Of a stretch of DNA of 24,981 nt, positions 3,338-19,273 are shown one piece after another. The position numbers and the translations under genes are program-made. Source of the DNA: Candidatus Zixiibacteriota bacterium (lineage in GTDB: Bacteria > Zixibacteria > MSB-5A5 > SM23-73-2); NCBI GenBank assembly GCA_030615745.1, contig JAUWYR010000038.1, forward strand, positions 1 to 24,981. The letters run 5' to 3'. Numbering within the stretch: position 1 is the stretch's first letter; each line of letters begins with the position of its first letter. Under the pieces are notes generated by a model that saw only the letters and a list, made by a program, of their open reading frames with translations, made no database searches and was not told where the DNA came from.

Positions 3338-3370
3338 GTAAACCTGCCTGTCTGCTCAGGAAAGGTTTAC
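3338..3370. repeat. Nested hairpin: GTAAACCT / AGGTTTAC with 15-bp loop module
   Basis: The outer arms GTAAACCT (3338-3345) and AAAGGTTTAC (3361-3370) enclose the 15-mer GCCTGTCTGCTCAGG (3346-3360), and ACTCCA follows. A sister element without the module lies at 8493-8510 and is also followed by ACTCCA. Its stem reads GTAAAGCT/AGCTTTAC, so one C:G pair has become G:C. Confidence 0.8.
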
Positions 3371-3382
3371 ACTCCAATACAA

Positions 3383-3417
3383 AAGACCCACCCTAAAAGC
3401 AAGACGGGTCTTCTTTT
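3383..3417. terminator. Bidirectional intrinsic terminator between GH57 and tldE genes
   Basis: The 7-bp stem AAGACCC (3383-3389) / GGGTCTT (3406-3412) is followed by CTTTT on the plus strand, and by TTTTG on the minus strand. It sits between the convergent genes and could terminate both. Confidence 0.55.
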
Positions 3418-3418
3418 A

Positions 3419-3455
3419 CCCACGTTGCCTGCCCGGCCAGGGAGGGCAACGTGGG
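3419..3455. repeat. Nested hairpin: CCCACGTTG / CAACGTGGG with 15-bp loop module
   Basis: Outer arms at 3419-3426 and 3442-3455 enclose GCCTGCCCGGCCAGG (3427-3441). Removing the 15-mer leaves CCCACGTTG-AGGG-CAACGTGGG, a perfect hairpin, as expected of a precise insertion. Confidence 0.75.
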
Positions 3456-3499
3456 ATTACAGTTATTTGTTTTTGTAAACTTATTTAGACAACAAAAAG

Positions 3500-4849
3500 T
3501 TAAAACTCGGTCTTTCCGGTGAACTTAAAGTTTTTGATAAATATCGAAGGACAGACTATACAGCCTATATCCTCCCACCACGAATTGACGATCTTTCTAT
3601 CTTTAGATAACTCAATCACATTTGAGAAAGCCTTGAGCATAGATTCAGTGAACCTCAGGTTTTTAATCCCGTGTTTGATTTTACCATTCTCAATCAAAAA
3701 TGTTCCATCTCTGGTCATTCCGGTGAATAAGGCATTGCGGGTGTCTAAATACCCATTTATGTAATGAAACCTGGTTACGAGAAGTCCGCGCTCTGTTTTT
3801 TCAATCATCTTTTCCTTTGAGGATTCACCCGCATCGATAAAAAGATTTAAAGCTATTGCTCCCTCAGTGAAATCGGGGGTTAAGGCATGACCGGTCGATT
3901 TAACCTTATCCTTATTTGCGCTCAAACTATCATAGACCACTCCCTTTGCCACACCATTCTGAATAATCACAACCCTTTTTTTAGGAACACCCTCAAGATC
4001 AAAGGGGAAAGCAATGGCTTTTTCGTCGTTACCATCATCATACATTGTGACAGAATCGCTCACTATCTTCTGACCAATTCTATCAGCTAAAAAACTTGTC
4101 TTCTCCTGAAAAGGTTTCGAGCCAAATCCTATGTAATTTAACCATTCGATAAGATTCGCCACAGCAACAGGTTCTAAGATCACATCGTATTCACCGGGTT
4201 CCAACCCTTTTGGATTTTTGCTATCCAGACATTTCTGAATGGCAACATCAGCCAGACTTTCCACATCGATTTTTGTGACATCACGGGTTAAAAAATCAGA
4301 ATATCCAGAGGAGTTATCCGACATCACTACTATGTTGATAAAAGAAGATGTGAGGGGTTGATAACAGGCGACACCTAATGAATTGAACACTGCAATCTCA
4401 GACTCAGACGTTGAGAATGAACCAGCAACTGAAAGGTTATATTTAGATGCGTTTTCAAAAATCTTTTTGACCTTTTCTGCTCTCTGAGCAGGAGAAAAAG
4501 AGGCAGTCTGTTTGAAATGGGTTTCTATTTTTTTATAACTCTCTTTCGAGGGCAAGGAGACAAAATCTGGATTTTCCCTCTGGTTTTTTGCGATCTCTGT
4601 AGCGTTATCCAAAGCCCTTTTCAAATCCTCCCTTTCGAAGGAGTTAGTAGATGCCACGCCGATTTTTTTGCCTGAAATTGCCCTGAAATAGATTTTTGAA
4701 TTGGTCTCAGATACGTTCTGATGGATAATTGAATTAGCATATCTTGTCAGCGCATTTTCTCCACCGATGTAGACCGCCTCAGTTTGGTCAGCAGAGGATT
4801 TTTTAATCACATCATTTAGGGTGCTTATTATTTTATCTTTTCCTATCAT
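3500..4849 (-). CDS. tldE: TldE/PmbA-family protein, partner of TldD, 449 aa
   Basis: This is the second gene of a tldD-tldE pair. Its ATG overlaps the TGA stop of tldD (positions 4846-4849), with a GGGGGTGAG-type ribosome site inside the tldD 3' end, so translation is coupled. The protein is full length for the family (about 450 aa). Features typical of TldE include TEAVYIGGENALTRYANS near the N-terminus, PGEYDVILEPVAVANL in the middle, and RDGTFLIENGKIKHGIKNLRF near the C-terminus. It has no HExxxH motif, which is expected because TldE is the non-catalytic subunit of the heterodimeric TldD/TldE protease. In Escherichia coli that protease processes microcin B17 and degrades CcdA. No peptide substrate is encoded next to it here. 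It is cytoplasmic, with no signal peptide. Confidence 0.92.
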   Translation of the reverse strand: MIGKDKIISTLNDVIKKSSADQTEAVYIGGENALTRYANSIIHQNVSETNSKIYFRAISGKKIGVASTNSFEREDLKRALDNATEIAKNQRENPDFVSLPSKESYKKIETHFKQTASFSPAQRAEKVKKIFENASKYNLSVAGSFSTSESEIAVFNSLGVACYQPLTSSFINIVVMSDNSSGYSDFLTRDVTKIDVESLADVAIQKCLDSKNPKGLEPGEYDVILEPVAVANLIEWLNYIGFGSKPFQEKTSFLADRIGQKIVSDSVTMYDDGNDEKAIAFPFDLEGVPKKRVVIIQNGVAKGVVYDSLSANKDKVKSTGHALTPDFTEGAIALNLFIDAGESSKEKMIEKTERGLLVTRFHYINGYLDTRNALFTGMTRDGTFLIENGKIKHGIKNLRFTESMLKAFSNVIELSKDRKIVNSWWEDIGCIVCPSIFIKNFKFTGKTEF

Positions 4850-6288
4850 TTGCTCACCCCCACCTTAATGTTTCTAAACCTTGTTGGGGATGCACCGTGA
4901 GCCACGTGCATAATCTGCATCGGCTCGCCTTTTCCACAATTGGGGACTCCCCATACTCTCCAGAACTTTTTATTACAAACCGCATCACACGAATTCCAGA
5001 ACTCCGGGGTCATACCAGTATAAACAGGATTTTTATAAACTTTGCCCAATTTTCCATCCTTTATCTCCCAGGCGATCTCTGTTCCAAATTGAAAATTGAG
5101 CCTTTTGTCATCGATGCTCCAGGATTTATTCATGTCCATAAAGATTCCCTCTTTTGTATCAGCGATCAAATCATCAAGATCCCATTCACCCGGCTCTAAA
5201 TTGATATTGGTCATTCTTATCAAAGGAATTCTATTCCATCCATCCGCCCTCATAGTGCCGTTGGATTTTTGATTCAAAACTTTGGCGGTCTCCCTTGAGG
5301 TGAGATATCCTGCGAACAATCCGTCTTTAACCAAAAAAACCCTCTGCGCTTTCACTCCTTCATCATCATATCCAAAGGTGCCCAATCCTCCTGGTATAGT
5401 TGCATCTGCAGTTATGGAGACTTTATCCGAACCATACTCAAGCTTATTCAACTTATCCAGGGTCAAAAAGCTTCCTCCAGCCAAGCTGATCTCTGTTCCT
5501 AATACTCTATCTAATTCAGTTGGATGACCGCACGATTCATGCACCTGTAAAGCCATCTGTGATCCAGAGATTACTATAGTCGTGGTTATATCGGGGCAGG
5601 GGTCTGCGGAGAGGAGCTGAATTGCCTCTTCCCTGACCTTTTCAGCATTTTCCAAAAGCTTCATCTCCTCAATAAATTCATAACCCCGGGTGGCAAAATC
5701 GCCCCGATGGGAATTGGGGTAGGATCTTCTTTGCACCTCACTTTTCTCAACCGCTGTTGCGAAAATACCTGCTCCGGACTCCAAAACAGCTTGGGTTATA
5801 TATGCACCTTCTGTTGAGCAAAAGATTTTTTCGGTTTTGTAAAAGTCCATGCTTCCCTCAGCTACCTTTATTTTATCACTTTTTAAAAGTATCTGGGTTG
5901 CATTCAAAAGAAGCTCGACTTTTTTATCTAAAGACACGGTAAAAGGATCGATCTGGCAAAAGGAAAGGTATTGATCCACAAGAGCTTCTTCCTCGGATAA
6001 AACCACGTTCTCTTTTTTTGTGGTAGCGCTTGCTTTTGCTATTTGAATAGCCCTATTTGCCACCCTTTTCATCTCTGCCTCTGTGGTGATAGATGAAGCG
6101 GCAAATCCCCATGCACCAGAGACGACAACCCTTATTCCAAACCCCTGGTCCTCACTTCTTGAGATAGCTTCAACATTTCTGTTTTTAACTTTTATACTCT
6201 CTATCAGCTTTTTCTGGTGCCGAATATCTCCATAATCGACCTTCTTTTTTCTGAGGTAATCCATGGTAGCTTTAATCTTATCTTCCAA
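4846..6288 (-). CDS. tldD: Metalloprotease TldD, 480 aa
   Basis: This is the catalytic subunit of the TldD/TldE zinc protease. The HExxxH zinc motif is present as HESCGH (residues 250-255). A conserved cysteine in PNCGKGEP (Cys451) matches the third metal ligand known from E. coli TldD. Other family segments are GFGIRVVVSGAWGFA near residue 50 and GMTPEFWNSC near the C-terminus. The start is TTG 6288: a strong AAGGAGG (6294-6300) lies 5 bp upstream, and no nearby ATG has a comparable site. The protein is cytoplasmic and forms one operon with tldE through a 4-bp ATGA overlap. A promoter-like TTGACT/TAAATT pair lies about 55-80 bp upstream. Full length and intact key residues suggest an active enzyme; the substrate is unknown. 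Confidence 0.94.
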   Translation of the reverse strand: MEDKIKATMDYLRKKKVDYGDIRHQKKLIESIKVKNRNVEAISRSEDQGFGIRVVVSGAWGFAASSITTEAEMKRVANRAIQIAKASATTKKENVVLSEEEALVDQYLSFCQIDPFTVSLDKKVELLLNATQILLKSDKIKVAEGSMDFYKTEKIFCSTEGAYITQAVLESGAGIFATAVEKSEVQRRSYPNSHRGDFATRGYEFIEEMKLLENAEKVREEAIQLLSADPCPDITTTIVISGSQMALQVHESCGHPTELDRVLGTEISLAGGSFLTLDKLNKLEYGSDKVSITADATIPGGLGTFGYDDEGVKAQRVFLVKDGLFAGYLTSRETAKVLNQKSNGTMRADGWNRIPLIRMTNINLEPGEWDLDDLIADTKEGIFMDMNKSWSIDDKRLNFQFGTEIAWEIKDGKLGKVYKNPVYTGMTPEFWNSCDAVCNKKFWRVWGVPNCGKGEPMQIMHVAHGASPTRFRNIKVGVSK

Positions 6289-6342
6289 GTGAACCTCCTT
6301 TCATTTAAAGGTTAAAGAACTCAAATAAACAATTCGAGAAGA

Positions 6343-6370
6343 AATTTAAGAAAGAAAAAAATAAAGTCAA
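6343..6370 (-). promoter_or_regulatory. Possible sigma70-like promoter of tldD-tldE
   Basis: On the minus strand TTGACT (6370-6365) is followed by a 16-bp T-rich spacer and TAAATT (6348-6343), about 55 bp before the tldD start. The match is moderate. Confidence 0.35.
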
Positions 6371-6498
6371 GTCTTTTTACATAAACTTGGTGGGTATTTA
6401 CATTTGAAATTTTAGTGTGGGCATTTATTGTATTTGTGTTTTTTTGTCAGATTCGTATGAATGTCCCTAGTGTAGTGTCTCTAACATTTCTTTACAAT

Positions 6499-6594
6499 GT
6501 CATTGCGAGGAGTCCATATGGACGACGAAGCAATCTCACCCAATCCCAACTATAAAGATTGCTTCGCCCCGATTTCATCGGGACTCGCAATGAC
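6499..6594. repeat. 96-bp REP-like inverted repeat with inner hairpins
   Basis: Perfect 11-bp ends GTCATTGCGAG (6499-6509) and CTCGCAATGAC (6584-6594) enclose a second inverted pair, CGAAGCAATCT (6526-6536) and AGATTGCTTCG (6556-6566). Between the outer and inner arms sit two small hairpins: GTCCATATGGAC on the left and CCCGAT/ATCGGG (6568-6582) on the right. Elements with CATTGCGAG and CGAAGCAATC arms recur in many unrelated bacterial genomes (from memory). Confidence 0.8.
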
Positions 6595-6734
6595 AAAAAA
6601 CATACTTTTTCAGAGCTCTCTTTATCGGTCTTTAAAACTGGAGTGCAAACATTTAGCATAGATTACAAAGTTATCAACTGAGATAGGTAACAGATTTAAT
6701 GAAGTCTTTCCTGTAACAGATGTTCAAAAAGCTT

Positions 6735-6785
6735 GTAGGCACGAATTCATTCGTGCATTTTTGCACAGATAGAATCTGTGCCTAC
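6735..6785. repeat. Compound palindrome with competing stems
   Basis: The outer arms GTAGGCAC (6735-6742) and GTGCCTAC (6778-6785) overlap two inner hairpins: GCACGAAT/ATTCGTGC (6739-6756) and GCACAGAT/ATCTGTGC (about 6763-6781). The GCAC/GTGC ends can pair either locally or across the element. A truncated copy lies at 11032-11052. Confidence 0.7.
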
Positions 6786-6800
6786 AAATCTTAAGAATAG

Positions 6801-6848
6801 GTAAAGCTGAAGTCGTAGATTCCGCTTAAGGCGGAGCTTTACACTCCA
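6801..6848. repeat. GTAAAGCT / AGCTTTAC hairpin with a different loop insert
   Basis: Arms GTAAAGCT (6801-6808) and AGCTTTAC (6835-6842), followed by ACTCCA, are the same outer element as at 8493 and 3338. Here the loop holds 26 bp that include the small palindrome TCCGC/GCGGA. Confidence 0.65.
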
Positions 6849-6892
6849 CAACATCATCTTATCAGGATAACTGATTTTCCAGATTTCTTTTT

Positions 6893-7267
6893 TTACTTCC
6901 CTACCAGAATCACACCTAAGAGGATCAAAAATATTCCTATCCACTTAATTGTTGAAAAGGGTTCTCTGAATATCTGCCAGGATATCAAAATAATTAAAGC
7001 ATAGGCTAAACCAGTCAAAAGTGGATAAGCATAGGAAAGATATGCTCTTGATAAAACCACCATATACATTGCTACACTGAGAGCATAGGATAAAAGACCT
7101 AAGATTATAAAGGGAGTTGAAAAAACTTTGGTGAAATCACTCAATAGTTGAGCAGGTGATATCCCTCCTATTTTATTCATTCCAGCCTTTAAAAAGACAT
7201 GCCCTAAAACATTGAGGATGATGACCACAACAAGTAAAATAAAATGTGACATATGCGAAGCATTCAT
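6893..7267 (-). CDS. Small four-TM transporter of the DMT superfamily (SMR/EamA/ArnE-like), 124 aa
   Basis: The start ATG 7267 has AAAGGAG (7282-7276) 8 bp upstream; an open stretch of 15 codons before it has no such site. Four hydrophobic helices are visible (about residues 8-28, 42-64, 70-90 and 98-120), the size and shape of small multidrug resistance proteins and of ArnE/ArnF-type flippase subunits. The fourth helix ends in GIFLILLGVILVGK, typical of DMT proteins. The glutamate in helix 1 that binds substrate in EmrE is not present: the aligned segment reads IILNVLGHVFLKAG, with Asn where Glu is expected. A canonical drug/proton antiporter is therefore unlikely, and a lipid-linked sugar or metabolite role fits better. 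It stands alone, flanked by repeats on one side and a divergent hydrolase gene on the other. Confidence 0.75.
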   Translation of the reverse strand: MNASHMSHFILLVVVIILNVLGHVFLKAGMNKIGGISPAQLLSDFTKVFSTPFIILGLLSYALSVAMYMVVLSRAYLSYAYPLLTGLAYALIILISWQIFREPFSTIKWIGIFLILLGVILVGK

Positions 7268-7345
7268 ACGAAAATCTCCTTTATCTTGGCTTTGTTTAAA
7301 AATTATATTCAATATATTTACAGACCTTTTTAATTAAGATTGTTG

Positions 7346-7374
7346 TTGACTTTAAAATTAAAAAGTATTACTAA
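7346..7374 (+). promoter_or_regulatory. Weak promoter candidate before the isochorismatase-like gene
   Basis: TTGACT (7346-7351), a 17-bp spacer, then TACTAA (7369-7374), about 70 bp upstream of the gene in a very AT-rich divergent spacer. The -10 match is poor. Confidence 0.2.
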
Positions 7375-7443
7375 ATGTAAAATTTTATTTGTTGCTGTCA
7401 ATAAAAATTAAGTTCTTTGATTTACTATTCACCGGAGGAAAAA

Positions 7444-8118
7444 ATGAACGAGGAGTATTACGTAAACGAAAAAAACCTTAAAGACAAAGCTTTGTTTTGG
7501 GAAGAAGAAATTAGACCTTATAATACCCACCAAATGAAGCCTAACTTTCCTTCCTCTGCTCTTCTGGTGATAGACATGCAAAACTTCTTTCTAAATCCAG
7601 AAAGCAAAACTTTCACTCCAGGGGGATTAGCGATAATTCCTAATGTTGTAAAGCTTGTCAAGGTTTTCAGGCAAAATAAGTTTCCAGTAATCTACACTGC
7701 TCATGTTCATAAAAGTCCTGAGATGGACGGGGGTATAATGGCCTGGTGGTGGCAGGGTATGGTTATTGAGAACACAACTGATGCTCAGATTCACCCAGCT
7801 TTAGCTCCTCTACCTAAAGAGAAGGTAATTTATAAGCACCGTTACAGCGGATTCTACAATACTGACTTAGAGATTACTCTGAGATGTCTTAAGATCACTG
7901 ATCTTTTAATTTGTGGAATAATGACCAATTTATGTTGCGAAACCACAGCCAGAGAGGCTTTCATGAGGGACTTTAGAGTTTTCTTTCTTCTGGATGCCAC
8001 CGGAACCATAGATGAAGAACTTCACTTAGCCACTCTTAAAAATGTTGCTTTTGGGTTTGCTTATGTGACCAAGACGGAGGAGGTTTTGAAAAAGTTAAAT
8101 AAAAAGCTTTGTGCTTGA
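7444..8118 (+). CDS. Isochorismatase-family cysteine hydrolase, 224 aa
   Basis: ATG 7444 follows GGAGG (7434-7438) at 5 bp. The catalytic triad of the isochorismatase-like (nicotinamidase/N-carbamoylsarcosine amidase) fold can be assigned. Asp44 lies in ALLVIDMQNFFL, Lys131 in VIYKHRYSGFYNT, and Cys164 in GIMTNLCCETTAREAF; the cis-peptide region before the cysteine is also normal. The family hydrolyses amides, ureas or vinyl ethers through a cysteine nucleophile. The substrate cannot be told from the sequence. An unusual WWW tract (residues 101-103) in the lid region may help define it. An N-terminal extension of about 35 residues precedes the core and has no signal peptide, so the enzyme is cytoplasmic. 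The gene stands alone and ends in TGA. Confidence 0.88.
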   Translation: MNEEYYVNEKNLKDKALFWEEEIRPYNTHQMKPNFPSSALLVIDMQNFFLNPESKTFTPGGLAIIPNVVKLVKVFRQNKFPVIYTAHVHKSPEMDGGIMAWWWQGMVIENTTDAQIHPALAPLPKEKVIYKHRYSGFYNTDLEITLRCLKITDLLICGIMTNLCCETTAREAFMRDFRVFFLLDATGTIDEELHLATLKNVAFGFAYVTKTEEVLKKLNKKLCA

Positions 8119-8192
8119 TAATTATTATCACTATGGAGCGGGAATTCCTATTCCTGATCCAGCTAAGAGACTGTCCAAGAATTAAAACAATG

Positions 8193-8254
8193 GTAGCCGC
8201 CCCGCATCAGATGGGGCGAAAATGTTACTTACGCAACCTAAAGGTTGCGGCTAC
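8193..8254. repeat. Compound hairpin GTAGCCGC / GCGGCTAC containing an empty CGCAACCT site
   Basis: Outer arms at 8193-8200 and 8247-8254 enclose GCCCC/GGGGC and the hairpin CGCAACCT-A-AAGGTTGCG (8232-8249). The latter equals the hairpin at 16120-16152 without its 15-bp module; both are preceded by ACTTA. Confidence 0.75.
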
Positions 8255-8294
8255 CCATGCAAATCATAATTTTTGGAGAAATTTCTAAAGAGTT

Positions 8295-8369
8295 CGTCGG
8301 GCATGTGCGTATGCATCAAGAGATCCGAAGGATGTCCGAAGGACTCTTCGAGCTTCGCAAAGCCCGACG
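8295..8369. repeat. 75-bp dispersed repeat, copy 1
   Basis: Ends CGTCGGGC/GCCCGACG form an 8-bp inverted repeat. Inside, an AAGAG/CTCTT stem encloses two short hairpins, ATCC-GAA-GGAT and GTCC-GAA-GGAC, so the element can form a branched (three-way) structure. It is identical over 75 bp to 8629-8703. Confidence 0.85.
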
Positions 8370-8492
8370 TTACATTTAACTCCTTAACATAAACCCTTTG
8401 AAATACTCTTACAATGCTTTTTGATAACCTATTCTAATTTGAATATAAAAAAATTAGGAGGACAATCAAGTAAAAATTTGGCTAATTTTAAA

Positions 8493-8510
8493 GTAAAGCT
8501 AAAGCTTTAC
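8493..8510. repeat. Empty GTAAAGCT / AGCTTTAC hairpin
   Basis: GTAAAGCT (8493-8500) is followed directly by AAAGCTTTAC (8501-8510) and ACTCCA. This is the uninterrupted form of the elements at 3338-3370 (15-bp insert) and 6801-6842 (26-bp insert). Confidence 0.75.
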
Positions 8511-8540
8511 ACTCCACTAATTTTCACTGTTATTGTGATA

Positions 8541-8605
8541 CGTGCTGTTCGGGTCCCCTGACCCGAACAGGTATTCCGCCAAGTCAGGGGACTTGGCAGT
8601 CACGG
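8541..8605. repeat. Double-hairpin element, empty form
   Basis: Two adjacent hairpins, GTTCGGGTC/GACCCGAAC and GCCAAGTC/GACTTGGC, are joined by a short GTATTCC linker. Read on the minus strand, the segment aligns end to end with 15912-15991, except that the latter carries 15 extra bases in the loop of the second hairpin. Confidence 0.8.
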
Positions 8606-8628
8606 AATTTGGTTTCGACTAAAAAATT

Positions 8629-8703
8629 CGTCGGGCATGTGCGTATGCATCAAGAGATCCGAAGGATGTCCGAAGGACTCTTCGAGCTTCGCAAAGCCCG
8701 ACG
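8629..8703. repeat. 75-bp dispersed repeat, copy 2
   Basis: Identical to 8295-8369 and in the same orientation, 334 bp away. The flanking bases differ apart from a short TTCG/ATTCG lead-in, which suggests that the 75 bp is the mobile or copied unit. Confidence 0.85.
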
Positions 8704-8721
8704 CTACGTTTTTTTTAACTG

Positions 8722-8812
8722 AACCCTAAAACCTACTACCTATCACCTACTACCTATTTCCTATCACCCACCACCTACCACCTAATACCTCTCAAACAAC
8801 CTCCCCCACTCA
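8722..8812. repeat. G-free low-complexity tract of CCTACYA/CCTATCA units
   Basis: Ninety-one bases contain no G on the plus strand. The centre (8731-8790) is a degenerate tandem array of ACCTACTA/CCTATCA/CCACCTA units. It overlaps the last codons of the DUF362 gene. On the minus strand it is a GGT/GGTAG-rich run just after that gene's stop. Confidence 0.7.
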
Positions 8813-9858
8813 GTCTTCTTAAATTCATTTATGAGCCTCCTCCCTACTGTCGGATACCACAGTATATCATGATAAAAATTCGAGGCAAAGGATGCCCATC
8901 CCACCAAAGGTGATTTCAACAATATCCCTTCCAAAAATCTCAGAGGTCCAATTCTTAACATCTGGTCTCCCCAGATAACAAAGCTCTTTTTGACCTTGAA
9001 CCCAAAATTAACAGAAGATATATCTTCTCCGATTATCTCGATCTCTTTTGGGTCGCCAACTCCTAATCCTTTTTCATGACAAATTCTAATGTATGGGATA
9101 GTCATCGGGTCAAAGCCCATGAGTTTAGCTGAGATAGAATCTATGGCTACTGAATCGAAAGAAGCTAAAATGTAATTTTTGATCTCTGGTTTCATTGTTC
9201 TTGGACCTGCTCCGTCACCGCAAACTGTACCGTCCATCACAGCGAAAACACTCGGATGAATTTCTTTTTGCATAAGCAAAAGATCAACCAATACCTGGTG
9301 AATATATTTATGCCCGTAATGCCTGAACTCCTTAAGCAGACCTCCAAATGAGTTTTTTATAGCTCCGGTGGTAATTGAATGTCCGTGGGTTTTAACTGTT
9401 GGAAGATGGATCACCTGTTTGCCAATAAACATCTTTGGAATCTCAATTCCTTTTGGAAAAAGTAAGTTTAATTTCAAGAGTTTGCTTTTGAATTCATATT
9501 TTATCCATTCAACTTCAGTTAAGGGGGTGAATTTAATTTTATATTTATTCAAAACACTTAGCCACCTATTATTTTCCGCTCCTTTCACAGGATCAGTAAC
9601 CACAGTCTTGTTTTCCACAGGTAAAAGTTTTTCTTTTTTAAATCCATCTTCCAATAAAGTCTTTAAAACACCTTCTAACTGCCAGGGTTCAGAGGAGCAG
9701 GATGGAAAATACTTTGTCCAGGAAAGATTAAGTTTTAACAGAGTCTCTTTATCTTTAGGGAGAAACTTTTGATATTCGGATAGTTTCAAAAGCTTTGTGT
9801 AATCTTCTAAGACCTTATCCGGTGAGGTTTTTAATACTATGACTTTAGGCTCTGACAC
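8782..9858 (-). CDS. DUF362 domain protein, about 358 aa
   Basis: The protein matches the DUF362 family. Visible family-type segments are HLPTVKTHGHSITTGAIKNS with FGGLL following (about 155-180), FAVMDGTVCGDGAGP (about 210-225), and ILASFDSVAIDSISAKLMGFDP (about 235-255). No CxxCxxC ferredoxin motif is present, so it lacks the iron-sulfur domain fused to some DUF362 proteins. The biochemical function of the family is not established. Two GTG starts are possible. GTG 9867 abuts the upstream stop and has no ribosome site. GTG 9858 has AGGTGA, made partly from the upstream TAG, 5 bp before it and is preferred. The tight junction with the UbiA-type gene indicates one operon and coupled translation, so a role in the same polyprenyl-phosphate sugar pathway is possible. 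Confidence 0.8.
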   Translation of the reverse strand: MSEPKVIVLKTSPDKVLEDYTKLLKLSEYQKFLPKDKETLLKLNLSWTKYFPSCSSEPWQLEGVLKTLLEDGFKKEKLLPVENKTVVTDPVKGAENNRWLSVLNKYKIKFTPLTEVEWIKYEFKSKLLKLNLLFPKGIEIPKMFIGKQVIHLPTVKTHGHSITTGAIKNSFGGLLKEFRHYGHKYIHQVLVDLLLMQKEIHPSVFAVMDGTVCGDGAGPRTMKPEIKNYILASFDSVAIDSISAKLMGFDPMTIPYIRICHEKGLGVGDPKEIEIIGEDISSVNFGFKVKKSFVIWGDQMLRIGPLRFLEGILLKSPLVGWASFASNFYHDILWYPTVGRRLINEFKKTEWGRLFERY

Positions 9859-9867
9859 AAAAATCAC

Positions 9868-10737
9868 CTATATATATACGATTATCAAAACACAGATAAG
9901 CCATAAAAAGATGTCGATTAAAATCGGAAAATCGGTCAAAAGAAGCTTTGATGGGCTTCCCCCCTCCTCTTTCTGATGAATCAGATAAAGATACCTGAAT
10001 ATTCCATACAAAACAAATGGGATGGTCAGCTCCAGATGTTCAACGTTCAATTTCTCCTTAACCTCAGGTGAAAGGGTATAAAAAGCATAAGCCACCACAG
10101 TTGATGCTGTGACTACTGAGATCAACTGGTCTAAAAAATAAGGGCTGTATTCGGTCAATATTTTTCTATGAGTGTTTGCTTTGTCTTCTAACAAAATCAG
10201 CTCATATCTTCTCTTGCCGAACCCCAAAAAAAGTGCTAAAAGAGTTGTGCATACCACAAGCCAGGAGGAAATAGTTACACCGATAACAACTGCTCCAGCC
10301 ACAGCCCTGAGCACAAATCCAGCTGAAATGCACATCACATCAAGTATGACTATATGTTTTAAATATTTGGAGTAGACAATATTTAGAGCAAAATAGATTA
10401 AACACACAAGAAAAAAATTCCCGCTTAAATAATATGAAAAAAGAAGAGATAACAAAGCCAGTGCGCCTGAAAAAAGTAAAGCGGAAAAGATTTTGAGCTT
10501 ACCAGAGGCTATTGGTCTTCTGGATTTAAGAGGATGTGCTCTATCATAACGTAGGTCTATAACATCGTTTATTATATACACACTTGAGCAGAGAAGGCAG
10601 AAAAGAAAAAAAGCATAAAAAGTTTTGATAAGCATAAAAGAGTTAAGTAGATTTTGAGAAAAGATAACTCCTGCAAAAAGCAAAAGATTTTTTACCCACT
10701 GGTTGGGTCGCATGGAGATTAAAATCTGTTTAATCAT
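9868..10737 (-). CDS. UbiA-family prenyltransferase, decaprenyl-phosphate phosphoribosyltransferase-like, 289 aa
   Basis: This is an integral membrane protein with about eight or nine helices. RPNQWVKNLLLFAGV at the N-terminus and NDVIDLRYDRAHPLKSRRPI (Asn57, Asp58, Asp61, Asp65) followed by ASGK are characteristic of the DPPR-synthase branch of UbiA (the Mycobacterium Rv3806c type). The second aspartate-type region includes GFGKRRYELILLEDK and TEYSPYFLDQLI. In mycobacteria this enzyme joins phosphoribosyl pyrophosphate to polyprenyl phosphate, the first step towards a lipid-linked arabinose donor. In other bacteria related genes serve undefined glycolipid or cell-wall pathways. The partner epimerase genes (DprE1/DprE2) are not in the window. 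A TTTACA/TATATT promoter lies just upstream. ATG 10737 has only a weak GGA ribosome site, which may mean a short leader. Confidence 0.85.
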   Translation of the reverse strand: MIKQILISMRPNQWVKNLLLFAGVIFSQNLLNSFMLIKTFYAFFLFCLLCSSVYIINDVIDLRYDRAHPLKSRRPIASGKLKIFSALLFSGALALLSLLFSYYLSGNFFLVCLIYFALNIVYSKYLKHIVILDVMCISAGFVLRAVAGAVVIGVTISSWLVVCTTLLALFLGFGKRRYELILLEDKANTHRKILTEYSPYFLDQLISVVTASTVVAYAFYTLSPEVKEKLNVEHLELTIPFVLYGIFRYLYLIHQKEEGGSPSKLLLTDFPILIDIFLWLICVLIIVYI

Positions 10738-10763
10738 AGAAGTTCCATTCTGTTAATCGACTT

Positions 10764-10791
10764 AATATATTAAATTTTGAGGGAATGTAAA
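10764..10791 (-). promoter_or_regulatory. Sigma70-like promoter of the UbiA-DUF362 operon
   Basis: Minus strand TTTACA (10791-10786), 16-bp spacer, TATATT (10769-10764). It lies about 25-50 bp before the ATG, giving a leader of about 20 nt. Confidence 0.4.
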
Positions 10792-12929: not shown

Positions 12930-13211
12930 AGCCTAAACTCAAGATTTGAGTATAAAATGTTAAAGTTTTTTTCAGCACCATTTAATATTTTAAAAAAGAG
13001 ATTTTTCTTTTTATTAACTTATCGGCTGGATTAGTTGTGGAATAAAGGGAGAAAGGGATGTATTTGATTATATTTAAGTAAGAATGCTGAAAAGCAATTA
13101 AAGAAAATTAAAGTCTTTTCATTAGTAAAGAAAAACACAAAGTTTGTAGATATAATTTATTGGAAGTTACAGTGAGAAGTAATGATAGAATAGAGCATCT
13201 TGCTCTGTTTT

Positions 13212-13250
13212 TGGAGTGCGATCCCGCCTTTGGCGGGACGCATGCACCCC
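13212..13250. repeat. Nested hairpin with TCCCGCC-TTT-GGCGGGA core
   Basis: The 17-bp palindrome at 13222-13238 sits between GGAGTGCG and CGCATGCACCCC arms, which pair imperfectly. The same 17-mer occurs in the opposite orientation at 21630-21646 inside a different hairpin. The rest of the 12930-13380 spacer is AT-rich, with no gene seen. Confidence 0.6.
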
Positions 13251-13287
13251 ATAATTTATTTTGAGGATGTTATCATTTACCCAGAAG

Positions 13288-13342
13288 TCTGTTTGCGGGG
13301 ATGCCTGCCCGTGCTACAGAGATAACATCCCCGCTGAACAGA
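13288..13342. repeat. Nested hairpin TCTGTT..CGGGGAT / ATCCCCG..AACAGA with an 18-bp module variant
   Basis: The arms pair over about 14 bp. In the loop, after GGGGAT, stands GCCTGCCCGTGCTACAGA (13303-13320), a longer variant of the 15-bp module that keeps the GCCTGCCCG start. GATAACATCC follows, as at 15183. Confidence 0.65.
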
Positions 13343-13380
13343 TCAAACGGAGAAAATTTCATCGTATTAAAAAATTTTTC

Positions 13381-15078
13381 TCACTTGAATTCGAGCACTA
13401 TTCCCTCTGTTTCCCATCTGGAGCGAACATTTAGTGTATCAGGATAAATAATTTTTGGCTCTGATGGCAAAAAAGGATAGGGGTTGCCAAAATCAAACTT
13501 CTGGTCACAATCTAAGTCAATAAAAGCACTTAAAAGATAGGCTCCAGGCAAGATACTGTCGAATAAAAATTCATTTGGTTTTTTTAAAATCTTTTGATAA
13601 TCTAATCTCGGTGGTTCTATTTTAGAGAGGATAATAAAGATATCTTTTTCCTCGGTTTTAGATAATACTTCAACTCTTCCTGAAAGGCTTCCTAAGGTAT
13701 CGGGATTCAGAGTTGTAAAGCTTATCTCAAATGGAATTGTGTCCAGAAGATTTCCAGCTAAATCTGTAACTTTGTTTTTCAATTCAAGTCTGTATTCTTT
13801 TTGACCTGAAAGCAAATTTTCTGGAACGAAAACAAAGGTAACTGGACCATTCCAAAAATAATTGCCTTCAATTTTTTCATCTTCTTTCTCTTTTAAAGCA
13901 AAAGATTTTTCAACCGAGAGTTTTTCAGGAGGTTTTTCAAAAAAGATTTTTATCTCGGTATCCAAAGGAACTATTTTTCCTTTGTCAGGGGGAGAAGTCG
14001 CAAGAATTTTTAATCTTGAAGTATCAGGCAAGTCAGCGCCTGTAAAAAAACAGAAGTTTTTTTCAGGGTCAATTCGATTTCCGAACTTATCCTCGATATT
14101 TAATACTGAAAGCTTATAATTTCTTTTTGGCTCAAGCTTATCTGTTATCAAAAAAGCCTTTTGAAAATTTTTATAAAGAGAATAAACTTTTTTAATCTTA
14201 AAAGTTTTCTCTGGTTTTTCCTCATAGGTGATCAAATAGGATTCTGGATCAACAAGTGTTTTTGAGTCAATTAACTCATCGAACTCCACACTTATTAAAT
14301 TTTTATTCAATGCCTTGCACTCAACTAAAGAGGGCTTGGTTGTATCCTGTTTGAATAAAAAGAAATTCAGGTTATCTTTTCTAAAAGATCCAGAATTTAA
14401 TTTCACGTCGCAAGTTGTAACACCAACAAGCTCTTTTTCAACATCCAGCAAATAGTCTTTGTTTTTATCAAGAATTGCAAATAGTCTATAGGTTCCGAAT
14501 GATAGATTTTTTAGCTGGTAACCACCTTTTTCATCTGTCTGGGTAACGTAGTCAGGTAAAAACAAAGATGGGTCCGGCTCCTTTTCAGATAAAAGATAAG
14601 CTAAAATCAAGATCCCTGACATACTTTTTTTATCTGAGTACACAAAACCTGATATAAAGCCCGAATCAATAAAATCTCCAGTTGAAAAAGCAAAACAAAA
14701 AGGCGATTTCATTCTATTACCATGTAAATCCATAGCATCTGTTCCTAAGGTGACAACATAGGTTTTATCCATTAAAAGAGGCTCTTTTGGATAAATGCTT
14801 AATCTTTTCTTATGCCACTTAAACTCAAAAGGCGTTTTTGGCAAAGGTGAAACAAAGACTGCATCCTGAGTTTTTTTCTGCGACATTCTTTCTGAGAAGA
14901 AAATCTCGATTTTAGTATCTAAACCCACTCTGACTGAATCTTTTAGAGGATGGGTCTTGACCACCTCAGGTGGAGTCAAATCCTTTGGACCACCCGGAGG
15001 CATCCCCTGTTTGGCACATCGAGAAAATAAAAGGGTTACCGATAGAAAGATTAAGATAAAAAGTTTTTTTGAACTCAT
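13381..15078 (-). CDS. Lipoprotein with Ig-like (Big_5/SbsA-type) domains, 565 aa
   Basis: An N-terminal signal (MSSKKLFILIFLSVTLLFSRC) ends in a cysteine at residue 21 followed by AKQGMPPGGPKDLTPPEV. This PPGGPKD..PP opening is common in lipoproteins of FCB bacteria. The lipobox has Arg just before Cys (FSRC), which is not canonical, so lipidation is likely but not certain. The first Ig-like domain spans about 34-130 (DLTPPEVVKTHPLKDSVRVG ... FAFSTGD), with the KIEIFFSERMS strand of the SbsA/Big_5 type. A carboxypeptidase-regulatory-like segment follows (about 138-215, GISGFVYSDKK...YQLKNLSFGTYRLFA). Two more Ig-like domains lie at about 245-345 and 355-450, and a second regulatory-like domain is C-terminal. 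It is probably surface or periplasmic, with a structural or adhesive role. It has no enzymatic motif. The ribosome site is weak. Confidence 0.82.
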   Translation of the reverse strand: MSSKKLFILIFLSVTLLFSRCAKQGMPPGGPKDLTPPEVVKTHPLKDSVRVGLDTKIEIFFSERMSQKKTQDAVFVSPLPKTPFEFKWHKKRLSIYPKEPLLMDKTYVVTLGTDAMDLHGNRMKSPFCFAFSTGDFIDSGFISGFVYSDKKSMSGILILAYLLSEKEPDPSLFLPDYVTQTDEKGGYQLKNLSFGTYRLFAILDKNKDYLLDVEKELVGVTTCDVKLNSGSFRKDNLNFFLFKQDTTKPSLVECKALNKNLISVEFDELIDSKTLVDPESYLITYEEKPEKTFKIKKVYSLYKNFQKAFLITDKLEPKRNYKLSVLNIEDKFGNRIDPEKNFCFFTGADLPDTSRLKILATSPPDKGKIVPLDTEIKIFFEKPPEKLSVEKSFALKEKEDEKIEGNYFWNGPVTFVFVPENLLSGQKEYRLELKNKVTDLAGNLLDTIPFEISFTTLNPDTLGSLSGRVEVLSKTEEKDIFIILSKIEPPRLDYQKILKKPNEFLFDSILPGAYLLSAFIDLDCDQKFDFGNPYPFLPSEPKIIYPDTLNVRSRWETEGIVLEFK

Positions 15079-15115
15079 AATTTCTTTTTGTGTTATGTCA
15101 AGATCTCAGTCCTTT

Positions 15116-15202
15116 CGTTCTTGGCGGATGTTATCATCCGCCACGCAGTTAGAATTCTGTCAAGGATGCCTGCCCGGCCAGGGATAACATCCTCGACGAA
15201 CG
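15116..15202. repeat. Compound hairpin with an empty and a filled GGAT..ATCC hairpin side by side
   Basis: Outer CGTTC/GAACG arms enclose an empty hairpin GGCGGATG-TTAT-CATCCGCC (around 15124-15141). A filled one follows, where GGAT is followed by GCCTGCCCGGCCAGG (15168-15182) and GATAACATCC. Removing the 15-mer gives GGATGATAACATCC, exactly the reverse complement of 15126-15139. Confidence 0.75.
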
Positions 15203-15250
15203 TAAAGTTTTAAGCATCAGGAGTAGAGCTTTTGACTAACTATTTAAAAC

Positions 15251-15478
15251 TCAAAGATTGGCTAAAAATTCCTTAGGCGTAACTTTTGCCAGCTTCAAAA
15301 TACCTCTCAAAGTTCCAATCCTAAGCTCTTGGTGAAGGGGAACCACACATCCAATTTCACCGCTCTCTATTTTCCTTTTTAAAACCACATGACTTCCTCG
15401 CTGTCTTACTATTTTGAAACCGAGTCTTTCAAGTGCTTTAATCGTTTCTTTCCCTGATACTTTCCTTAGCTCAGGCAT
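15251..15478 (-). CDS. hicA: HicA-family toxin (mRNA interferase), 75 aa
   Basis: This small double-stranded-RNA-binding-fold protein has KALERLGFKIVRQRGSHVVL. The catalytic His30 lies in the GSH segment that defines HicA (YcfA) toxins, which cleave mRNA in translation-dependent fashion. The length is normal for the family. The ATG (15478) overlaps the end of hicB by 8 bp, and a GAGG ribosome site lies inside hicB, so the toxin is translated only with its antitoxin. No extra domain is present. It is flanked downstream by palindromic repeats. Confidence 0.9.
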   Translation of the reverse strand: MPELRKVSGKETIKALERLGFKIVRQRGSHVVLKRKIESGEIGCVVPLHQELRIGTLRGILKLAKVTPKEFLANL

Positions 15479-15683
15479 TGTAGACTACCTCAAATGTGGT
15501 GAGAATCGGTTTGTCTAATTTGAGGGAGGGAAATTCTTCTAAGTAAAGTTCTGTTGCTTCTTTCAAATTGGCAATTGCTTCTTCAATTGTATGACCTTGA
15601 CTTACAGTTCCGACTTCAGGGCACTCAGCGACATACATATCTTCTTCTTTGTGAAGGATTGCGGTAAATGTTTTAGTGGTCAT
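15471..15683 (-). CDS. hicB: HicB-family antitoxin, 70 aa
   Basis: The start ATG 15683 has GGAGG (15696-15692) 8 bp upstream; a TTG five codons earlier overlaps that site and is unlikely. The protein has the short HicB fold: FTAILHKEEDMYVAECPEVG, then SQGHTIEEAIANLKEATELY, then a C-terminal strand. It lacks the C-terminal helix-turn-helix or ribbon-helix-helix found in longer HicB proteins, so autoregulation by DNA binding is uncertain. It should neutralise HicA by direct binding. The antitoxin gene comes first, the reverse of the classic E. coli hicAB order; this order is common for the short HicB type. Confidence 0.9.
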   Translation of the reverse strand: MTTKTFTAILHKEEDMYVAECPEVGTVSQGHTIEEAIANLKEATELYLEEFPSLKLDKPILTTFEVVYNA

Positions 15684-15826
15684 TTTTGTAACCTCCAAAG
15701 AATTTTTTTTATCAACTTTAGGATAATTAAGTCAATTTAAATCTATGAAATTGCAATAGGATTTGCAAGATTTTTTTATCTCTTTCAATTTGCATTTCTA
15801 AAAGAGACATCTTTCATCTTTAGGTT

Positions 15827-16152
15827 GTGTCGGCACTCTAATCCGGACACCTTTTTTAAGCGTCAGAAGTAGAGCTTCTGACTCAACTATTTTAAAAATA
15901 CCCTTCTCTTTCCGTGCCTGCCAAGTCCCCTTTGGCTGGGCAGGCTGACTTGGCGGAATATCAGTTCGGGTCAGGGGACCCGAACTGCACGAATGATCAT
16001 TATTCTGTGTTGGTGCGGGAATTCCAATTCCCGCACTAACAAAAGAGTTTTTTAAATCGGTAATCCCATGTTTTTCTGTGTTGTGTCGGGACCTCAGTCC
16101 TGACACCTTTTTAAACTTACGCAACCTGCCTGCCCGGCCAGGGAAGGTTGCG
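15827..16152. repeat. Cluster of six palindromes in the spacer 15684-16157
   Basis: In order: GTGTC/GACAC (15827-15850); GTCAGAAG/CTTCTGAC (15862-15882); the filled double-hairpin element (15912-15991), inverse to 8541-8605, with TTTGGCTGGGCAGGC at 15931-15945; the GTGCGGGAATT/AATTCCCGCAC hairpin (16013-16036), same as 3270-3293; GTGTCGGGAC/GTCCTGACAC (16083-16106, one G-T pair); and CGCAACCT/AAGGTTGCG with GCCTGCCCGGCCAGG in its loop (16120-16152). An open frame of 108 codons across this cluster (15798-16124, minus) is made of the palindromes themselves and is not counted as a gene. Confidence 0.8.
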
Positions 16153-16157
16153 ACAAC

Positions 16158-17822
16158 CTATCTTTTAAGTTTCTCCTTTAAGCCCTCATTCTCCGGATCC
16201 AAATCCAAAGCTTTTTCCCAATACTCTTTTGCCTTTTGCCTTTCCCCTTTTGCCTGTAAAATATCTCCTAAGTGCTCATAAATCACTGCATCGGTATCCA
16301 GAAACTCCAAAGCTTTTCTTATCTCCTTTTCCGCCCTATCGATCTCTCCGAGTTTGAACAAAACCCAGCCATATGAATCTATATAAGCAGGATTTTCAGG
16401 GTTTTTTTCCAATGCTTTCTCTATCATAATCTTTGCTTCATCCAATCTTATCCCTTTATCTGCCAGCGTATATCCCAGGTAATTCAAAAAAATATCGTTT
16501 TCAGGTTCAATTTTAATAAGTTTTTCAAATACCTTAATCGACTCCTCAAAATGTCCACTCCTTTCCAAAGATGAACCTAAACCGAAAAGTATATGAGGAG
16601 AATCAGGAGAAAGACTATCTGCTTTTTGAAAATAAAAAATAGCTGAGTCATATTCTTTTAAACGACTATAAGAGATTCCCAAATAATAATAAAGACTAAC
16701 TTTACCTATCACTCTTTCCAAGCCCTCTTTATAAACCTCAATTGCTCTTTTTATGCTATCCTCCTCAATATATGTGAGACCTAAATAAATCCATCCATCA
16801 GGTACAGAATCATTTAGTGTTATTGACTTTTTAAAGTTTTCCTTTGCATTGTGAAAATCTTTTTTCTCCAAAGCCAATTTCCCTGTTAAGAGAAAAACAA
16901 AAGGGTCTTTTGGATAAGTTTTTTTAAGATCAGAAAGGAGTGATTCAGCAGATTCTTTCTGATTTGAGTAAATGTATAACTCAGCCAATATTTTTTGGGT
17001 GTTTTCATCTTCAGGTAAAAGCTTTAATAAATCCTCTGCTTGATAAACAGCCTCCTTTAGTCTTCCCTGATTTTTTAGAAGAAATATCAATCTTTTTTTG
17101 AGGTAGACGTTGGGGTAACCCAGGTTTAAAGCTTTTTGATACGCTTTGATCGCAGCCTCTATGTCATCTTTTACCTCATAGGTTTCAGCCAGACCCACCC
17201 AGGCTCTTCTATCATCAGGAGCTATCTGGGTGGCTTTTATGAATTGCTTCTCTGCCTCATCATACTCTAAGTTCTTTAAAAAGAATGAGGCAGCCTGAAG
17301 TCTAATTTTTAAGTTGAAGGGATAAAGCTCAACTATTTTTTTCCAACAAGACCCCGCTTCTTTTATTTTACCAGTAGCCTGATAGAGCAAAGTTAGATTC
17401 CAGAAAGAGTGAGCATTTGTGGAATCGAGCTCAACTGATTTTTGATAAGATTCTTTAGCTTTTTCAATTCGACCCAACCGTCCATATAGATCACCTAAAA
17501 ATCCCCAGATTATGGAGGATTTGGGCTCAATTAAGGACGCTTCTTTTAAAGCTTTTTCAAATTCGTCTTTTTTGTAATAAGCTTGAGCTAAAGCTAATCT
17601 GCTCTCTTTTATCTTTGGATTTATATTTAAAGCTTTTTTATATTCGAAAATCGCTGAGTCAAGCTCACCTTTTAGCTGATACCAGTCCCCTTTAACAAAG
17701 TGCTGGAAAGCTGAAAGGTCATCTTTTTCATTTTTTTCAACCTGCGCGCTTTTCAAAGCTGGAGCACAACCAGAAAATAAACTTAAAACTACTATAAAAA
17801 TAAGACTTAACGCGTTTCTCAT
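16158..17822 (-). CDS. TPR-repeat lipoprotein, 554 aa
   Basis: A lipoprotein signal (MRNALSLIFIVVLSLFSGC, Cys19, canonical LFSGC lipobox) is followed by about fourteen tetratricopeptide repeats that fill the protein from about residue 40 to the end. Typical helices include WYQLKGELDSAIFEYKKALN near the start and YDSAIFYFQKADSLSPDSPH about two-thirds along. The end reads AKEYWEKALDLDPENEGLKE. ATG 17822 has AAGGA 6 bp upstream. Such lipoproteins are attached to the outer or inner membrane facing the periplasm and act as protein-interaction scaffolds, for example in envelope assembly or secretion. The partner cannot be named. The palindrome cluster begins directly after the stop. Confidence 0.88.
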   Translation of the reverse strand: MRNALSLIFIVVLSLFSGCAPALKSAQVEKNEKDDLSAFQHFVKGDWYQLKGELDSAIFEYKKALNINPKIKESRLALAQAYYKKDEFEKALKEASLIEPKSSIIWGFLGDLYGRLGRIEKAKESYQKSVELDSTNAHSFWNLTLLYQATGKIKEAGSCWKKIVELYPFNLKIRLQAASFFLKNLEYDEAEKQFIKATQIAPDDRRAWVGLAETYEVKDDIEAAIKAYQKALNLGYPNVYLKKRLIFLLKNQGRLKEAVYQAEDLLKLLPEDENTQKILAELYIYSNQKESAESLLSDLKKTYPKDPFVFLLTGKLALEKKDFHNAKENFKKSITLNDSVPDGWIYLGLTYIEEDSIKRAIEVYKEGLERVIGKVSLYYYLGISYSRLKEYDSAIFYFQKADSLSPDSPHILFGLGSSLERSGHFEESIKVFEKLIKIEPENDIFLNYLGYTLADKGIRLDEAKIMIEKALEKNPENPAYIDSYGWVLFKLGEIDRAEKEIRKALEFLDTDAVIYEHLGDILQAKGERQKAKEYWEKALDLDPENEGLKEKLKR

Positions 17823-18072
17823 ACGAATCCTTATATCATTTTAAATCTTTTTATCAAAAAAACAAGGAAAAATTGTGTCAGTGATGTGCATAATATGAAG
17901 TTGCTTCTTTGAACCTGAAAAATAGTGGAAACAAAAAGTAGTTCAACTCGTTTTTTCAAAGGAATTGATTTATAAAATCAACTCATTTTGTTACATTAAC
18001 TTAACCATCCGGTCTTCTGTAAGTCGTTATAATCCTTAGGGTTAAAATTTTAATAGTGTTTTCATTTTTCAC

Positions 18073-18101
18073 TTGACAAGTTATAATACAAAGGATAGAA
18101 T
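18073..18101 (+). promoter_or_regulatory. Sigma70-like promoter before the redoxin/Cys-peptide unit
   Basis: TTGACA (18073-18078), exactly 17 bp, then TAGAAT (18096-18101). It lies about 200 bp upstream of the redoxin start, implying a long leader. The 482-bp spacer (17823-18304) otherwise holds only a small TTGATTT/AAATCAA hairpin near 17967 and no gene. Confidence 0.5.
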
Positions 18102-18304
18102 AAGAATGCATCTAAATAATCAAAAAGAAATTTTTAATTTAAGCAGATAAAATATCTCTTAAATGAGAATGGACTTTCTTCTTAAACCTTAAAACTAAGG
18201 ATTTTTTCTCGGTTTGATTTTGAGCTTATCGACGAAAATGATTTGGACAAAAAATTTAACAAATATCTTTAAACAAAGAAAAGTTCAAAACGGAGTGCTA
18301 CAAA

Positions 18305-18886
18305 ATGACCGAAAAATCAGGATTTTTAAAAACCCAGCTATGGTCTATAATTCTTATTGCAATAGTTTTAGTAATGGGAGTTGAAATCTTTCTTCTGGTC
18401 CAGGAGAATCAGAAACTTCGCAAAGCACTGGATCGTCCGAGAGGTTCCTTTAAAATCCTTAACCCAGAAGAGAAAGTTCCATCCCTTATTGGAATTAATC
18501 TGGATGGGGAGGAGTTCAAAATAGAATATCCTTCATCTAAGAAAACAGTCCTTTTCTGGTTTTCTTCTGCTTGTCCTTCCTGCGAGCATAATATCAAATT
18601 CTGGAAAGAAATTTATCAAAAGCACAGTTCTGAAAAGCTAAGATTTCTCGGAGTCACTCATTCTGGAGAGGAAAAAACAGAGGAGTTTGTAAAGAAATTC
18701 CAATTAGAATTTCCTGTTTTGATTGTCTCTGATTTTTCACTTCTGGATCAATACAAAGTGGAGGTAATTCCGCAGACAATGCTCATTGATACTAATGGTG
18801 TTGTCCAAAAAGTCTGGCCCGGACCTTTATTGGATAATTATAAAAAAGAAATAGAGTTGATGCTTTCATCATCTTCAAAACAATAA
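18305..18886 (+). CDS. Membrane-anchored TlpA/redoxin-like thiol protein, 193 aa
   Basis: One N-terminal helix (about residues 12-32) anchors the protein and a short coiled segment follows. A thioredoxin-fold domain (about 55-190) faces the periplasm. The active site is CPSC (Cys90, Cys93) in FWFSSACPSCEHNI, and the cis-proline loop is VIPQT (Pro156). RFLGVTHSGEEKTEEFVKKF is typical of AhpC/TSA-redoxin proteins of the TlpA/ResA type. Such proteins reduce or reshuffle disulfides outside the cytoplasm, for example in cytochrome c maturation. GGAG (18292-18295) precedes ATG 18305. The cysteine-rich peptide gene starts 37 bp downstream with a very strong ribosome site, and a terminator follows it, so the two are one transcription unit. 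The peptide is an obvious candidate substrate. Confidence 0.85.
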   Translation: MTEKSGFLKTQLWSIILIAIVLVMGVEIFLLVQENQKLRKALDRPRGSFKILNPEEKVPSLIGINLDGEEFKIEYPSSKKTVLFWFSSACPSCEHNIKFWKEIYQKHSSEKLRFLGVTHSGEEKTEEFVKKFQLEFPVLIVSDFSLLDQYKVEVIPQTMLIDTNGVVQKVWPGPLLDNYKKEIELMLSSSSKQ

Positions 18887-18923
18887 AAATAAAAAAAGTT
18901 GTTGCGAAAGGAGGTGAGAACCA

Positions 18924-19118
18924 ATGAAGTTTTTCAGAAAACTTAGAGTTTTTGCGCTCCTGTTTGCAGTGCTGGCTCTGGTTATAGGGTTCACCGTGCT
19001 TAATGCTTCTAATACCGCAGATGCAAGCCGTTGTGACTGCTGGTGTATGTATTGCACAATCAACCCACCTTTCTATTGCTGGTGCGAGTGCTGCCCTTGC
19101 CCTCCACTCTTTCCTTAG
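18924..19118 (+). CDS. Secreted cysteine-rich peptide precursor, 64 aa
   Basis: I do not recognise a family. The N-terminus (residues 1-35) is a clear signal peptide or single anchor: MKFFRKLR, a hydrophobic run at about 9-27, then NASNTADA, an AxA-type cleavage site before Ser35. The remaining 30 residues contain nine cysteines (37, 39, 41, 44, 52, 54, 56, 57, 59) in CxCxCxxC and CxCxCCxC clusters around a TINPPFY linker, and they end in PPLFP. GGAGGTGA lies 8-9 bp before ATG 18924, close to a perfect anti-16S match, which suggests high expression. A terminator follows. The layout is reminiscent of the small Cys-rich exported peptides of Bacteroidetes (NVEALA type) encoded beside TlpA-like genes. 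A metal-binding peptide, a disulfide-rich toxin or a modified peptide are all possible. Confidence 0.75.
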   Translation: MKFFRKLRVFALLFAVLALVIGFTVLNASNTADASRCDCWCMYCTINPPFYCWCECCPCPPLFP

Positions 19119-19157
19119 GAGTTTGAGCGCAGAAGAAGGAGCGTAGAAACACCACTT

Positions 19158-19195
19158 GGGCGAGCAATGATTTTGCTCGCCCAGTTATTTTATTT
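19158..19195 (+). terminator. Intrinsic terminator of the redoxin/Cys-peptide unit
   Basis: A perfect 10-bp stem GGGCGAGCAA (19158-19167) / TTGCTCGCCC (19173-19182) with a 5-nt loop is followed by AGTTATTTTATTT. It is placed 40 bp after the peptide stop. Confidence 0.7.
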
Positions 19196-19240
19196 AGCGA
19201 ATTTTTGTCTCAGATAATATTAAAACTTTGTTGAAAAAAA

Positions 19241-19273
19241 TCAATCCTGCCTGTCCGGCCAGGAAAGGATTGA
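19241..19273. repeat. Nested hairpin TCAATCCT / AGGATTGA with 15-bp loop module
   Basis: Arms TCAATCCT (19241-19248) and AAAGGATTGA (19264-19273) enclose GCCTGTCCGGCCAGG (19249-19263). Without the module the arms form a continuous hairpin with an AA loop, the same pattern as at 3338 and 16120. Confidence 0.75.

Follow-up and report, generated by a model that had tools for sequence, protein, structure and literature searches.

A near-palindrome inserted about 100 times in a Zixibacteria genome appears to act as one of the smallest known mobile elements

The locus and its module copies

The window, which is the whole stretch of 24,981 nucleotides that was analysed (contig JAUWYR010000038.1), contains repeated copies of a 15-mer (GCCTGYCYGSYCAGG, hereafter the module) that lie within hairpins, together with hairpins that are empty (Table 1). 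The five 15-mers, the reverse-oriented relative, the 18-bp variant and the three empty hairpins reported in the initial annotation of this DNA were all found at the positions it had given. At up to 3 mismatches, 17 matches to the module were counted in the window against 1.94 expected from dinucleotide shuffles, part of these matches overlapping each other because the module is nearly palindromic. No Rfam family was matched within the window, and the literature search returned no match to the module sequence.

Table 1. Module copies and empty hairpins of the window (hairpin arms are separated by ^)
Position	Strand	Feature	Hairpin	Basis
3346..3360	+	module copy GCCTGTCTGCTCAGG, diverged	GTAAACCT^AAAGGTTTAC (3338-3370)	sequence, family insert lengths
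3427..3441	+	module copy GCCTGCCCGGCCAGG	CCCACGTT^GAGGGCAACGTGGG (3419-3455)	syntenic site empty in sister genome G001
8232..8249	.	empty hairpin	CGCAACCT^AAAGGTTGCG	
8493..8510	.	empty hairpin	GTAAAGCT^AAAGCTTTAC	
13303..13320	+	18-nt variant GCCTGCCCGTGCTACAGA	same position of GGGGAT^GATAACATCCCC hairpin (13295-13334)	
15126..15139	-	empty hairpin	GGATGATAACATCC	
15168..15182	+	module copy	AAGGAT^GATAACATCCT (about 15160-15196)	empty counterpart, insert lengths
15931..15945	-	decayed module copy GCCTGCCCAGCCAAA	GCCAAGTCA^GGGGACTTGGC (15920-15954)	
16128..16142	+	module copy	CGCAACCT^GAAGGTTGCG (16120-16152)	empty counterpart, insert lengths
19249..19263	+	module copy GCCTGTCCGGCCAGG, T6/A16 subtype	CAATCCT^AAAGGATTG	

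Also observed in the window were a 116-bp unit made of several hairpins and present in two copies, 148 bp apart and 89% identical (3059-3322), a repeat of some 95 bp that contains GCGGGCATGTGCGTATGCATCAAGAGATC and is dispersed over three places (8280-8377, 8614-8711 and 19273-19353), and a short ORF of 98 aa (21931-22227) that resembles the N-terminus of an IS transposase and is apparently truncated.

The window's own genome (G000; 2.28 Mb in 74 contigs, 98.6% complete) was searched as a whole, as the initial annotation had advised, and yielded 140 matches to GCCTGYCYGSYCAGG at up to 1 mismatch (69 + 71), against a single one (0 + 1) for a reversed-pattern control. The exact 16-mer GCCTGYCCGGCCAGGR, which extends the module by one base, was found 46 + 52 times (control: 0). 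About a quarter of this genome (about 0.58 Mb, picked around copies) was read base by base, and the 97 distinct copies that it contains were used for the analyses of insertion sites.

Precision of the insertion and length of the unit

In 13 hairpin families of G000, inserts between the arms are, with few exceptions, 0 or 15 nt long; an insert of about 30 nt, seen in one case, is a nested copy, and the rare other lengths correspond to unrelated sequence or to adjoining hairpins. When the flanks of each copy were joined, an ungapped empty counterpart was found in the same genome for 67 of the 97 copies (with no more than 4 mismatches in 24 and, in several cases, 0-1). This search had no separate shuffled control, and tandem module copies make up three of the matches. 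A scan blind to the module, which took every hairpin whose stem has 7 bp or more and counted the 12-mers recurring in the loops of different stems, recovered the module in the loops of 28 stems, against at most 5 for any other sequence of normal complexity. In the genome G033, which belongs to the same class, 17 members of the family GTAGGGGTTT^GATTNATCAAACCC are empty and 4 are filled, the insert being exactly 15 nt in three of the latter.

The filled form is 15 bp longer than the empty form, and no target-site duplication was found between them, beyond a possible 1-base G. Copies nested in opposite orientation inside other copies occur at loci L002 and L115, a triple tandem module at locus L022, and a tandem also in genome G021. 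The precise, fixed-length insertion without target duplication proposed in the initial annotation is thus supported by empty sites in the same genome, by an empty site in a sister species, by in-frame insertions in genes and by nesting. Its further claim, that deleting 15 bp restores the hairpin, holds in most cases, but about a quarter of the copies lie outside any obvious hairpin.

A 30-nt double hairpin (ATCCACCGTAGGTGGATCCGCCTCTGGCGG) was seen once in the tip of a CGCAACCT^AAAGGTTGCG hairpin (family A of G000), and the sister genome has one near-identical form (locus L184, near 3650); this double hairpin is possibly a second module.

Directly 3' of the 15-mer, base 16 is always a purine (97 of 97 copies), and it covaries with base 6: 82 copies are of the C6-G16 type, 13 of the T6-A16 type and 2 mixed. 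In families F and K, the T6 copies have A16, a base that nearly all empty hairpins lack at this place (A in 0/15 and 1/16). This covariation and the A16 of the T6 copies favour a unit of 16 nt that replaces one purine. It is therefore more likely that the unit is 16 nt long and swaps one target purine for a net gain of 15 bp, and a small hairpin YCC-GGCCA-GGR is favoured as well; the argument that base 16 is part of the element, and hence that a purine is replaced, draws on three sites only.

Placement in hairpins and target rule

When the joined flanks were folded, 72 of the 97 junctions fell within a helix-loop of 5 bp or more, compared with 354 of 1000 positions taken at random, and the mean folding energy was -14.3 against -7.2. 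Most of the 72 hairpin insertions (57) are on the 5' side of the loop centre, 11 are at 0 or +0.5, and 4 are clearly 3'. In families H, I and J and in the GTAGGGG family of G033, the insert lies in the 5' arm, at a distance of about 4-7.5 nt from the loop centre. At 22 sites outside the REP families, which were chosen by eye and are mostly in genes, the folding signal was at background (combined P 0.47). The folding excess, taken with the background level at gene sites, indicates that a hairpin is favoured and not needed. The initial idea of a strict loop placement is consequently retained as a strong preference for the hairpin tip, but not for the many copies of the 5' arm, nor for gene sites, where there is no hairpin preference.

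The right flank is usually G(A/G) and no fixed left-flank motif was detected among the 97 copies. The target rule is incomplete, because gene sites show no hairpin enrichment. No orientation bias was found relative to GC skew (51:45), to the majority gene strand (52:44) or to the host gene (6:9). At loci L166, L174 and L112, the module was observed inside palindromes of the GTTCGACAGGCTCACCACGAAC and CACCCTGAACGAAGTGAAGGGTC types, which we take to be widespread dispersed palindromes of other bacteria.

Distribution across genomes

A scan for CTGCCTGYCCGGCCAGGRAAG in the genome contigs of 84,980 species gave seven stretches, including some from the Chloroflexi genomes RBG_16_64_32 (G132) and NC_groundwater_62 (G133), in which 11 and 8 exact 16-mers were counted, respectively (control: 0). 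The copies of these two genomes are found in hairpins (for example GCAGGGCT^GAAGCCCTGC and CCCCAGCCT^GAAGGCTGGGG) and in genes. Among 393 genomes of the Chloroflexi class, more than 2 copies of the 16-mer are present in G132 and G133 only; among 132 genomes of the window's class, there are 98 in G000, 10 in G033, 5 in G021, 4 in G001, 2 in G012 and 0 or 1 in each of the others. The distribution of the module is patchy and extends over two phyla. The CT-module-RAAG form gave 0 matches in viral contigs. An assembly or adapter artefact was also considered, and was ruled out by the many unique sites in independent genomes, the decay at old sites and the reading frames that are kept.

Search for the moving enzyme

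The initial annotation had pointed to a RAYT-like transposase, and three RAYT genes are indeed present in G000; Y1 transposases of this kind were found in 12 of the 12 genomes tested. A specific version of the explanation that we prefer ascribes direct movement of the 16-nt unit to a RAYT or to some other HUH single-strand transposase. It is compatible with the presence of RAYTs in every module-bearing genome tested and with the association of these enzymes with hairpin-forming REP DNA (PMC8266576, PMC2817692), but RAYTs are equally present in genomes rich in copies and free of them, no module lies within about 1.5 kb on each side of the RAYT genes read (loci of about 3 kb), those of G000 included, and the left side of the insertion has no fixed target motif. 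Furthermore, among the RAYTs compared, those of G000 form no specific group with those of other module-bearing genomes. This version is accordingly regarded as unlikely, and the RAYT-like origin first suggested is not borne out. No RVT_1 reverse transcriptase was found in G000, G001, G033, G021, G012, G018, G132 and G133, some of these genomes being incomplete.

Recurrence and comparison with a sister species

Filled and empty copies are interspersed by similarity in families E, G, AB and F (P 0.24-0.49), and a modest grouping of filled copies was seen in families H and I (P 0.03-0.05). Since filled and empty hairpins are mostly interspersed, insertion is taken to have recurred: after a single capture per family, the filled copies should resemble one another, which those of E, G, AB and F do not. 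Part of the spread of families H and I, given their clustering, may be co-mobilisation with the REP. As a general explanation, co-mobilisation supposes that each REP or hairpin family captured the module once and that filled REPs were then spread by their own RAYT transposase. The constant position of the module within each family, the clustering in H and I, and the occurrence of REP-type hairpins together with RAYT genes in the genome are all in its favour. We hold it to be very unlikely nonetheless, since, in families E, G, AB and F, a filled copy has an empty nearest relative about as often as chance predicts, since a syntenic hairpin is empty in the sister species, and since the module also interrupts unique genes and other copies of itself.

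The sister genome (G001, Zixibacteria bacterium SM23_73_2, same genus) was used for syntenic comparison. Its identity follows from the sequence that its copy L037 has in common with the named record L127, and places the window in the Zixibacteria. In the spacer corresponding to position 3427 of the window, the hairpin is present but empty (TTGCCCACGTT^GAGGGCAACGTGGG, 3/32 mismatches), a filled/empty difference of the kind that the initial annotation had proposed to look for in sister strains. The comparison covers only a handful of sites, and matches are looser outside this one: three further sites have empty counterparts in G001 at 4, 6 and 8/32 mismatches, the one at 4/32 spanning a long gap. 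One insertion is common to both genomes and has decayed in G000 (GTCTGCCCGACCAAG at L083, against GCCTGCCTGGCCAGG at L203 in the sister genome). The shared decayed insertion and the empty sister sites together imply insertion before the split of the two species and, most simply, after it as well. Some empty hairpins for which there is no outgroup could be explained by precise deletion.

Insertions inside genes

Some module copies interrupt conserved genes in frame, and no stop codon was seen in the six reading frames of the unit (by inspection). When compared with solved homologues, AroB and RlmD of Chloroflexi are longer by exactly five residues where the module lies; in MltG, a gap of five residues adjoins the module site, and in GatA the gap is longer. 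A multicopy transposase gene, assigned by eye from its sequence to the IS256-like family, carries two in-frame module copies (L012/L013, L017 and L095, at the starts of contigs 9 and 11 and in contig 35). In a Chloroflexi ribonucleotide reductase gene (L180), the module was observed together with apparent in-frame palindromic insertions (ALSGAEGAGR and STRSAGSGQAF).

These gene insertions exclude, as sole mechanism, template switching or gene conversion at replication, by which the tip of a filled hairpin would be copied into an empty one. Such copying would produce a recurrent change in fixed register without target duplication, many hairpins have related tips, and there is no strand bias; against it, the arms are wholly different between families, the insert length is constant, and the gene insertions have neither arm homology nor hairpin preference, so that we find it very improbable. 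The replication slippage from hairpin to hairpin put forward in the initial annotation likewise fails for copies in genes without matching arms. Little credence is given to the remaining alternative, a 15-bp scar left by excision of a longer hairpin-inserting transposon with ends CCTGYCC...GGCCAGG: the unit is nearly palindromic and resembles two joined terminal inverted repeats, but in about 0.58 Mb there were 0 longer inserts of the form GCCTG...GGCCAGG between matching arms, the loosest ends gave 17 matches against 2-13 in controls, and exact nested and tandem units exist.

Proposed mechanism and significance

The 15-mer is, with good probability, a very small non-coding mobile element that is inserted repeatedly in a fixed register and would be moved by an enzyme at the DNA level. 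Transfer at the DNA level is favoured because no reverse transcriptase, RAYT link, orientation bias or longer element was found. In this mechanism, the 16-nt quasi-palindrome would take the place of one target purine, with a net gain of 15 bp and without target duplication. Insertion is repeated in a fixed register, usually before G(A/G), with a strong preference for the tip or the upper 5' arm of REP-like hairpins, its own hairpin included, as in the nested copies. On landing in a gene, the 15 bp add five codons, the unit having no stop codon in any frame. We infer that the substrate of the enzyme would be DNA that is folded or locally unpaired, and that the unit would be copied or transferred from copies already present. 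A more complete reading, towards which we lean slightly, is that the 16-nt unit is an active mobile element of at least two phyla, placed near hairpin tips by a trans-acting enzyme in exchange for a purine, and that it would be the smallest described.

This unit bears on how very small repeats without a gene of their own spread in bacteria. Because it is short, uniform and often caught in both filled and empty states, the moving activity becomes testable: relatives rich in the module can be compared with relatives that are free of it, and about 100 sites are available for reading the target rule. The insertions described here also show one way in which conserved enzymes gain five-residue segments in frame.

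Comparison with known systems

Rickettsia palindromic elements are palindromes of about 100-150 bp found in frame within protein genes. In-frame gene insertion (AroB, RlmD) is common to these elements and the module, which differs from them by its size of 15 bp and by an unrelated sequence.

REP and REPIN sequences are similar to the module in being palindromic, present in about 100 copies and mostly intergenic (PMC3733652, PMC3116915), whereas the module is an insert within such hairpins and has no RAYT link. The GTAG/CGTC tag is not on the module, whose flanks are variable, and GTAG is carried by some host hairpin families. Some REPs lie inside other palindromes (PMC3733652), and REP hairpins are known precise targets of insertion sequences (PMC1525189); the latter are full transposons, in contrast to a module of 15 bp without a gene. 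The GC clusters of yeast mitochondria are short mobile palindromes that merge and nest, with putative AG or ACT target-site duplications, in host genomes that have intron-encoded reverse transcriptases (PMC4478555). The module is like them in merging and nesting, without their duplications and with no reverse transcriptase found.

The remark of the initial annotation that no named family has this nesting is nearly right, but the small dispersed repeats (SDR) of cyanobacteria are a close functional parallel, nesting included. They are said to have been described by Elhai et al. in 2008 as very short (21-27 nt), structured and non-coding sequences, confined to cyanobacteria, that insert precisely in other repeats and in their own copies. 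Judged by this description, the SDR are the nearest functional parallel to the module, which is likewise very short, structured, non-coding, precisely inserted, and embedded in other repeats and in its own copies, and which is smaller, with a net insert of 15 bp and a unit of 16 nt at most. One of them, SDR5, is inserted precisely between bases 3 and 4 of HIP1 (PMC4390886). Unlike the cyanobacterial repeats, the module has Zixibacteria and Chloroflexi as hosts, keeps an identical core sequence in both, and occupies genes as well as many unrelated hairpins.
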